Made by a program: the position numbers and the translations under genes | Part shown: positions 1,815 to 12,098 of the stretch, in pieces | Numbering within the stretch: position 1 is the first letter of the stretch | How the letters are laid out: the number at the start of each line of letters is the position of its first letter | NCBI GenBank assembly: GCA_018824115.1 | Contig: JAHJGY010000009.1 | Span: 1 to 36,601 of the forward strand | Direction: 5' to 3' | Origin: Patescibacteria group bacterium | GTDB lineage: Bacteria; Patescibacteriota; 4484-211 | DNA: 36,601 bases | The notes under the pieces: model-generated | What the model saw: only the letters and a program-made list of their open reading frames with translations | Told to the model about the DNA's origin: nothing | Databases searched by the model: none

Positions 1815-2030
1815 CAGTTTATTAAAAATTCGACTTCATGACGCCGGCCTTAACCGGGATCCCCAGGCCCCACAACGAAGGCCGGCGTCAATCCGTCAAA
1901 GGAGGAGAAAGAAAAAGTGCATCGTGCCCGGGGCTGGGCTGTTTGTTGACAAATCGGCTCAGGTACAGGCTGCTGAGCCGCCGCCTCAAACCCCGGGCAA
2001 AAAACTGATGTGGCCGGAACGGCCAGTCAA
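1815..2030 (-). ncRNA. Candidate structured sRNA (ncRNA-1) with a single-stranded CU-rich anti-SD-like linker
   Basis: Near-consensus promoter at 2037-2065. Perfect helices 1839-1851/1878-1890 (13 bp), 1925-1933/1991-1999 (9 bp), 1955-1962/1973-1980 (8 bp). Unpaired CUUUCUCCUCCUUUGACG between the two domains. Confidence 0.5.
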
Positions 2031-2036
2031 TACCCC

Positions 2037-2065
2037 TTTATACCATGGCCGATAGCAGTTGTCAA
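2037..2065 (-). promoter_or_regulatory. Near-consensus sigma70 promoter (TTGACA-17-TATAAA)
   Basis: Reverse complement reads TTGACAactgctatcggccatggTATAAA. Confidence 0.6.
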
Positions 2066-2970: not shown

Positions 2971-3218
2971 TATTAATTAACAATTAGTGTTCTCACCTAA
3001 CCCCACAGTAAATACTGCGGGGCAATGCCTACCGGCAGATAGGAATCACTGTCCCTTACCGGACCTTTTGAGGAAAAAACACCCTCAACCGCACCATGTC
3101 ACATGGCAAAGTCAGGTAAACCCCCGCCCATTCGGCGGGTAAACCTATCTGCCGAGTAGGCCGACTGCGCGAAGGCCGAAGACAAACTACCGACTTCGGC
3201 AGTACATTTAAGTACCGG

Positions 3219-4160
3219 ATGACTTATCAAAATGAAACCAAATTTCATGAACCGGTCTTTGTATCAGAAGTCTTACAGTACCTTAAAGTTAAGCCCGGTG
3301 GAAAATATATCGATGCCACAGTTGGCGGAGGAGGACACAGTGCCGCCATTATCGACAACGGGGGTATCCTTTTAGGAATTGATGTCGATCCTGGCGCGCT
3401 TAGTTTTGCTGAAGCTCGATTGGCGGCAAACTCAAAACGCAACCCGTCCTCGACGAAGTCGAGACGCAGTCGGGAAACTCAAAACACAAAACTAATCAGA
3501 GGTAGTTATCGCAACCTTAAAACAATCGCAGAGAGAAACAACTTTAGCCACGTCGATGGGATCTTGTTTGACTTGGGTATGTCTACCTGGCAAATTAAAA
3601 AGTCCGGTCTGGGCTTTAGTTTCATGGCTAATGAACCATTGGACATGAGAATGGATCCAAAATTAAAAGTTACGGCCGCCGATCTGGTCAATGGACTATC
3701 AGAAAAGGAACTTGTAAAACTTTTTATTACCTACGGCAATGAAGTTAATGCTAAACGTATTGCTAAAAATATTATTAACGCGCGTCATTTAACGCCAATA
3801 ACGCACACCCTCCAGTTAGTGGAAGTTATTGGATATTGGCGCCGGAGAAATTCGACAGCGGGGAAAATTCACCCGGCAACGAAGGTGTTTCAAGCCCTAA
3901 GGGTCGCAGTAAATGACGAGCTAAACAGCCTGAGGACCGCACTGCCCGAAGCAATAAAATTATTAACAAAAGAGGGAAGGCTCGTGGTTATTAGCTTTCA
4001 TTCTTTAGAAGACAGGATTGTTAAACAGTTTCTTAAGGAACAAGTCAAGTTAAATCGAGTACGCATTTTAACGCCAAAGCCAATCACACCATCTACCGAC
4101 GAAGTCGACAGGAACCCTTCCGCCAGGTCTGCTAAATTAAGGGCGGCAGAAAAAATATAG
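3219..4160 (+). CDS. rsmH: 16S rRNA (cytosine1402-N4)-methyltransferase RsmH
   Basis: HEPVFVSEVLQYL...DATVGGGGHSAAI...LFDLGMSTWQ...PATKVFQALRVAVNDEL...ISFHSLEDRIVKQF...RSAKLRAAEKI. Confidence 0.95.
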   Translation: MTYQNETKFHEPVFVSEVLQYLKVKPGGKYIDATVGGGGHSAAIIDNGGILLGIDVDPGALSFAEARLAANSKRNPSSTKSRRSRETQNTKLIRGSYRNLKTIAERNNFSHVDGILFDLGMSTWQIKKSGLGFSFMANEPLDMRMDPKLKVTAADLVNGLSEKELVKLFITYGNEVNAKRIAKNIINARHLTPITHTLQLVEVIGYWRRRNSTAGKIHPATKVFQALRVAVNDELNSLRTALPEAIKLLTKEGRLVVISFHSLEDRIVKQFLKEQVKLNRVRILTPKPITPSTDEVDRNPSARSAKLRAAEKI

Positions 4161-11330: not shown

Positions 11331-12098
11331 TTACAACAGTGTTTCTAAGTACTTCTCCCTTAAACTCTGCTTCCACTCTTCATTTAACTCCCTAAACTCC
11401 CGAAACCAATTAAAATCATCGTCAAGTGACAACCCTTCTAATCGCACTGCTTCATATTCATCAATAATGGCAAAGACAAAATCCAAATAACTTCCTTTTC
11501 TAGCAAAACTTGATAAAACCACACCGGTGTTAACTAAACTACTCTTACTAGGGTTAATGTAATCCCGCAGAGAAGACCACGCATAATCAATTAACTCCTT
11601 CTTAGATCTGATTCCAATTCCCTGAGGATTTAAATGATGGTAACGTGATAGGTGCAGAAGCTGATCCTCTCGCTCCACATGAACAGCCTTAAACTTTCCT
11701 TGAAAAAGATTTCCTGATCTTTCATATCGTAAGTTGAAATAATTAGTATAAGAAGTTCCCACACGGTGCATGTAGTTAGTTATCCCTCCCGTAACTAGTT
11801 GCTTAAGTGCAAGGTGATAATGATTAGGCATCAAGCAAAACGAAATAATCTCCACCGGCGGCCGATCCAACCTTTTTAATCTAAACCCCCTTAGAACATC
11901 CTGCTTGTCTTCTAATGATTGGGCTTGATCAAAACTCCTCCTGAATCCGCTATACGGGTAGTTATACTCCAGATAATGCTGGAGAATAGACAGAAAGCGC
12001 GAGTAAAACGAATCATTGGGATAAACGATTCTTTTTTCTATCCCTCGATTGTAGACGTGATAATAATTGTCGGTGATAAAAGGAAATTTACGTTTCAC
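11331..12098 (-). CDS. REP-associated tyrosine transposase (Y1_Tnp, RAYT-like)
   Basis: YYHVYNRGIEKR, FCLMPNHYHLALKQ (HUH), RSGNLFQGKFKA, LSRYHHLNP. Confidence 0.9.
   Translation of the reverse strand: MKRKFPFITDNYYHVYNRGIEKRIVYPNDSFYSRFLSILQHYLEYNYPYSGFRRSFDQAQSLEDKQDVLRGFRLKRLDRPPVEIISFCLMPNHYHLALKQLVTGGITNYMHRVGTSYTNYFNLRYERSGNLFQGKFKAVHVEREDQLLHLSRYHHLNPQGIGIRSKKELIDYAWSSLRDYINPSKSSLVNTGVVLSSFARKGSYLDFVFAIIDEYEAVRLEGLSLDDDFNWFREFRELNEEWKQSLREKYLETLL

Follow-up and report, generated by a model that had tools for sequence, protein, structure and literature searches.

A candidate structured small RNA gene with its own promoter and terminator, divergent from mraZ in a patescibacterial genome

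The long intergenic DNA upstream of mraZ in this patescibacterial genome raises two questions: whether its minus strand carries a discrete small RNA gene, and whether the product of such a gene would act by covering ribosome-binding sites. A preliminary description had proposed a structured sRNA with a trans anti-Shine-Dalgarno (SD) role. Its promoter, fold and terminator largely stood up to analysis, whereas the anti-SD mechanism did not. A discrete minus-strand RNA gene probably exists here; a general role in blocking ribosome-binding sites is not supported.

Genomic setting and architecture of the candidate RNA

The window analysed (36,601 nt) is contig C58 of genome G000, an assembly of ~1.0 Mb in 86 contigs that is 95.8% complete. 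The candidate is located in a 2373-nt intergenic region bounded on one side by the end (~189) of a thioredoxin-like ORF with the C-terminus ..GCSIKWKGQ* and on the other by mraZ (a PF02381 match), the first gene of a cell-wall/division operon (rsmH etc.). The candidate lies upstream of mraZ in divergent orientation. As genome background we used 289 kb of stretches of G000, of which 33.4 kb (11.6%) was intergenic according to simple ORF calls. Of the other intergenic regions in this sample that measured 150 nt or more (73 in all), none was as long; the largest of them had 1040 nt and their median was 273 nt. The GC content of the candidate segment was 57%, compared with 44% for the genome, and a long intergenic region rich in GC is a recognised sign of structured non-coding RNA (PMC6429828). 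The features are collected in Table 1.

Table 1. Coordinates of the candidate RNA, its signals and the neighbouring structured block
Feature	Position	Strand	Basis or value
Sigma-70-type promoter TTGACA-17-TATAAA, extended -10 (TGG)	2065-2037	minus	sequence match
-35 hexamer TTGACA	2065-2060	minus
-10 hexamer TATAAA	2042-2037	minus
5' mini-hairpin (6 G/C-rich + 3 weaker pairs), then U6	2029-2000 (pairing 2029-2006)	minus	predicted fold; -10.2 kcal/mol
Domain 1: closing stem, further pairs and inner hairpin	1998-1926	minus	z -3.2
9-bp closing stem GCCCGGGGU/GCCCCGGGC, last pair U-G	1998-1990/1926-1934	minus
8-bp inner hairpin	1980-1973/1955-1962	minus
Open pyrimidine-rich linker ACUUUUUCUUUCUCCUCC, putative interaction segment	1918-1901	minus	p_unpaired 0.74-0.99
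Intrinsic terminator: outer stem, internal loop, 13-bp stem, small apical hairpin, UUUUU	1900-1824	minus	-40.5 kcal/mol, z -4.0
Outer stem UUUGAC/GUCGAA (6 pairs)	1900-1895/1834-1829	minus
Perfect 13-bp stem	1890-1878/1839-1851	minus
U5 run	1828-1824	minus
Neighbouring block (~1 kb), candidate large structured RNA	1705-713	minus	-417.7 kcal/mol, z = -9.0
Promoter-like site of the block, GTGACA-17-TACTAT with TG	1735-1707	minus
Classic terminator of the block	745-713	minus

The promoter was present as claimed and, in addition, carried the extended -10. It was the single match to TTGACA-N16-18-TATAAW in the window, where 0.07 were expected. The 289 kb of G000 contained 15 promoter-like sites that agreed with the consensus at 11 or more of its 12 positions; 12 of them were intergenic, the candidate's own site included, as were all five exact TTGACA/TATAAT sites. 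The density of sites of this quality in intergenic DNA was ~30 times that in coding DNA. The coding rate (3 sites in 256 kb) predicted ~0.4 false sites for the intergenic part against the 12 seen, indicating that most intergenic near-consensus sites should be real promoters. TGG-extended -10 hexamers were also found upstream of the genes for 16S rRNA and RNase P in G000. Judged from its distance to the -10 (~7 nt), transcription would start near 2030.

At the other end, the perfect 13-bp hairpin claimed earlier was recovered, and the window contained no other short-loop perfect inverted repeat that reached 13 bp (2 vs 0.1 expected with both strands counted). None of 60 shuffles contained such a stem followed by a T-run. 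The T-run itself exists, but it does not lie a few nucleotides past the 13-bp stem as had been described; six more pairs lie between the two and U5 follows those directly. The U-run abuts the stem because, past a 4x4 internal loop (GGAU/UGAA), pairing resumes in the outer UUUGAC/GUCGAA helix. No T-run occurs on the plus side, and the terminator therefore fits the minus strand alone. Intrinsic-terminator-like sites of -15 kcal/mol or below were ~9 times denser in intergenic DNA of G000.

The predicted transcript of ~205 nt (~2030-1824) had a minimum free energy of -92.2 kcal/mol (z = -4.5) and was the most stable among 1040 windows of 210 nt. The closed 9-bp domain and its inner 8-bp hairpin were both present in the predicted fold. 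The two-domain structure did not begin within ~10 nt of the promoter, as the preliminary description had it; domain 1 begins 39 nt past the -10, and the mini-hairpin with its U6 intervenes. From its modelled structure, this mini-hairpin may be a weak early terminator or attenuator. Placed just 30 nt past the start, it might abort transcription, which counts against a ~205-nt RNA. The plus strand of the candidate folded nearly as well (-90.1 kcal/mol, z -4.3). When intergenic 200-nt windows of G000 were folded, tRNAs included, 11.7% had z < -4 and 17.6% had z < -3, showing that fold energy alone is weak evidence in a genome where intergenic hairpins are common. The real argument is the ordered unit of promoter, RNA and terminator rather than the fold. 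The candidate RNA has its own promoter upstream and a same-strand intrinsic terminator at its 3' end, and no protein-coding explanation of the segment was found.

The linker and the Shine-Dalgarno question

The linker was the sole long single-stranded stretch of the predicted RNA. It had been described as unpaired and as resembling the 3' end of 16S rRNA, and both statements held in part. Positions 1918-1901 were open, but the UUUGAC end was mostly paired in the terminator; since the terminator stem takes in UUUGAC, the linker is not unpaired throughout. The 16S rRNA of G000 ends in GGATCACCTCCTTTCT, and the core common to it and the linker was the 8-mer CCUCCUUU. In the predicted fold UCUCCUCC was open, whereas the UUU of CCUCCUUU was mostly paired in the terminator. 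The window contained four copies of the 8-mer where 1.8 were expected, so the 16S-like core is unremarkable.

Four results told against the proposal that the CU-rich linker binds ribosome-binding sites. SD use was low in G000, with GGAGG before 6.2% of starts compared with 1.5% of control positions; an anti-SD mode, if true, would be odd where SD sequences are seldom used. Target prediction with the linker, which the preliminary description had suggested, gave start-region duplexes no better than those of shuffled linkers (a difference of 0.74 observed vs 0.84 +/- 0.37, for duplex energies at 194 start regions relative to coding controls). Near-complements of the linker with at most 2 mismatches were not enriched genome-wide (18, compared with 24 matches to the reversed pattern used as control). 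Hfq (PF17209) was detected in none of 8 genomes of the order, G000 among them, although positive controls were found.

A specific, Hfq-independent antisense role through the linker is possible. The leader L067, which precedes a 46-aa ORF and contains UCAAAGGAGGA, shows perfect complementarity over 11 nt to the linker and the base of the stem (-20.0 kcal/mol). A second near-complement was found in L079, which belongs to a 226-aa protein, and both leaders have real-looking SDs. By their sequences the two are no more than candidate targets. The L067 match may be due to chance because the linker showed no start-region preference and its near-complements were not enriched.

Our best account is a standalone, lineage-specific minus-strand sRNA gene whose product acts as a trans antisense through the open linker without Hfq, and we hold it tentatively, at a little below even confidence. 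RNA polymerase would start near 2030 at the extended -10 promoter, and transcription would stop near 1824 at the strong intrinsic terminator to give an RNA of ~205 nt. From 5' to 3', this RNA would comprise a closed domain rich in GC, the pyrimidine-rich linker with its 18 open nucleotides, and a terminator hairpin. Through the linker it would pair in trans with a few purine-rich mRNA leaders independently of Hfq, and it would not be a global anti-Shine-Dalgarno decoy. Computation establishes the promoter, the terminator and the fold as features of the sequence, together with their rarity; we infer transcription, a stable product and pairing of its linker with targets. Antisense action through the open linker would be the best single mechanism.

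Known systems resemble the candidate in part. Like the C-rich-motif, SD-binding sRNAs of Firmicutes (IsrR, RsaE/RoxS and FsrA), it is a structured RNA with a promoter and a terminator of its own, in which a pyrimidine-rich single strand lies beside stems; IsrR has three stem-loops, single-stranded C-rich regions and a canonical terminator (PMC9410917). However, the Rfam search revealed no sequence relation to these RNAs, the linker of the candidate is U-rich (CUUUUUCUUUCUCCUCC) with a C-rich core of just CUCC/CCUCC, and its targets are sequence-based candidates. The scarcity of SDs in G000 is also unlike the situation argued for staphylococci (PMC9410917). The Hfq-dependent trans-acting sRNAs of Proteobacteria are similar in being ~200 nt long and intergenic and in ending with an intrinsic terminator and U-run, but no Hfq was detected in G000 or any of the 8 order genomes searched. 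A further likeness is to the candidates from GC-rich intergenic regions (GC-IGR/DIMPL), which share a long GC-rich intergenic region, strong predicted structure and no homologue. Such homologue-less structured regions were called 'unnamed', 31 of them in T. lienii (PMC6429828). The present candidate differs in being delimited by a near-consensus promoter and a terminator.

Homologues and competing readings

DNA searches against 97 and, at most, 381 genomes of the phylum found no homologue; the same family was represented by 3 of these genomes and the same order by 7. A covariance model built on the single sequence, with limited reach at an effective number of sequences of 0.7, retrieved no homologue, and none was present in 305 kb of further loci. 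Distant blastn searches of phages and plasmids and exact-pattern scans of viral contigs gave no match. In the three same-family genomes compared, MraZ identity was 59-65%, a distance at which it is ordinary for sRNAs to have no homologue. In relatives, mraZ and its operator region were the sole parts that aligned with the window. Upstream of mraZ the relatives had neither synteny nor a counterpart, the neighbours being ftsA/ftsZ-like and relA-like. A MraZ search of the genome contigs returned one distant match. The structure and the linker are without evolutionary support.

Rfam 15, searched at gathering and permissive thresholds, returned nothing convincing; the best hit, mir-645, scored 22.6 bits against a cut-off of 90 and was attributed to chance. 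The models for RNase P RNA and tmRNA did not match here, and both have their own genes elsewhere in the genome (C83:38762-39176, 76.8 bits with a cut-off of 100, and C49:4523-4912, respectively). 6S RNA was set aside solely for its architecture, a long hairpin with a central bubble, which the imperfect 73-nt hairpin of domain 1 does not match. No minus-strand ORF of at least 80 aa was present, just an 8-aa AUG ORF and GTG/TTG ORFs of at most 33 aa.

The segment might instead be one module of a larger minus-strand non-coding locus that includes the 1705-713 block immediately downstream, a reading we regard as unlikely. In that case the locus would encode a large structured RNA whose role is structural or ribonucleoprotein instead of antisense, and the ~205-nt RNA would accompany it or form the 5' portion of one longer transcript. 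The block lies on the same strand of the same outlier intergenic region, folds with the energy given in Table 1, holds no ORF with a Pfam match, and has a minus-strand terminator at 717 (-17.1) besides its promoter-like site. However, the strong terminator at 1900-1824 separates both parts, the block folds well both ways (890-1570: z -5.4 plus, -7.0 minus) and neither part has a homologue. The block had no Rfam match either, and a 113-nt sub-model was included in the homologue search. It is rather doubtful that the 2.37-kb region is a two-RNA locus, comprising a new ~1-kb structured RNA and a ~205-nt companion unrelated to described RNA families; if true, it would be a new RNA pair in a streamlined ~1-Mb bacterial genome.

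It is also unlikely that there is no gene at all, and that the segment is hairpin-rich, fast-changing intergenic DNA with REP-like palindromes and terminators, in which the promoter is fortuitous or drives just a short aborted transcript. The frequency of intergenic windows with z < -4, the palindromes and REP-type elements in the same region, the equal folding of both strands, the lack of conservation and the U6 terminator-like hairpin 30 nt past the start are all in keeping with this reading. It accounts poorly for a promoter of a quality so enriched in intergenic DNA, and for a promoter and terminator that are correctly ordered and oriented on one strand. Furthermore, the element has no second copy in G000, showing that it is not a repeat family.

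Two coding explanations fared worse. The linker can be read as AUG CAC UUU UUC UUU CUC CUC CUU UGA (1922-1896, peptide MHFFFLLL), with the stop codon at the terminator stem base, as in an amino-acid leader-peptide attenuator; this is very improbable, since every run of pyrimidines yields F/L/S/P codons, the AUG lacks an SD (the upstream CCCCGGGCACG belongs to or borders the domain 1 stem), no downstream minus-strand gene is available for regulation, and the Phe_leader/Leu_leader matches were weak, below the gathering score and away from the candidate at 711-803. Least probable of all is a functional plus strand with the hairpins as mRNA structure, in which AAAGGAGGAG (1898-1907), a strong SD-like sequence 9 nt before GTG 1917, serves a 10-aa ORF or is part of an overlapping 108-aa frame (1729-2055) on a strand that folds well; the 108-aa ORF had no Pfam match, the plus strand lacked a good promoter upstream, and the terminator T-run belongs to the minus side.

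As it stands, the standalone sRNA gene is one orphan candidate, and more may be gained from its larger structured neighbour. Searches of open-access papers gave nothing on point about small RNAs in Patescibacteria/CPR bacteria, so a candidate with a near-consensus promoter and a terminator offers metatranscriptome studies of such small genomes something definite to search for.

Other elements of the window

The palindrome TTTAACCTCCCAGGTTAAA was present at 199-217 and 2136-2154 and in 9 copies in G000 (at most 2 mismatches). Several copies lay right after gene ends, one of them containing the stop codon, and some were followed by a GGGCCGC-like segment. The palindrome was absent from the 7 other genomes of the order. 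A REP-type element, TGTAGTAGCGG..TTTAATC..GCTATTACA, was located at 394-456; its relatives in genome G001 were on C36 and on C21, the latter within an array of hairpins like it. A Y1_Tnp (IS200-like/REP-associated) transposase is encoded elsewhere in the window, at 11331-12098 on the minus strand.

Contig C14 of the same assembly repeated the end of the thioredoxin-like gene at 94% identity and matched 473-550 at 89%; the DNA between the two was unalignable, as in fast-changing intergenic DNA. The copy can be read as a second strain or as a duplicated locus. C14 stops at the equivalent of window position ~550, short of the candidate element.

Three TGGGN-type direct repeats with ~9-10-nt spacing (TGGGT-AAGTG-TGGGC-GGTG-TGGGT, 2186-2225 minus) lie upstream of the sRNA promoter and are reminiscent of MraZ boxes. 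TGG-type repeats beside the mraZ promoter (2434-2470 plus) aligned with those of relatives. A short hairpin-like insertion, CCTCGACGAAGTCGAG, was found within the rsmH reading frame near 3451, and the mraZ-rsmH intergenic region (3011-3220) had a strong minus-strand fold of -92.2 kcal/mol in 210 nt.
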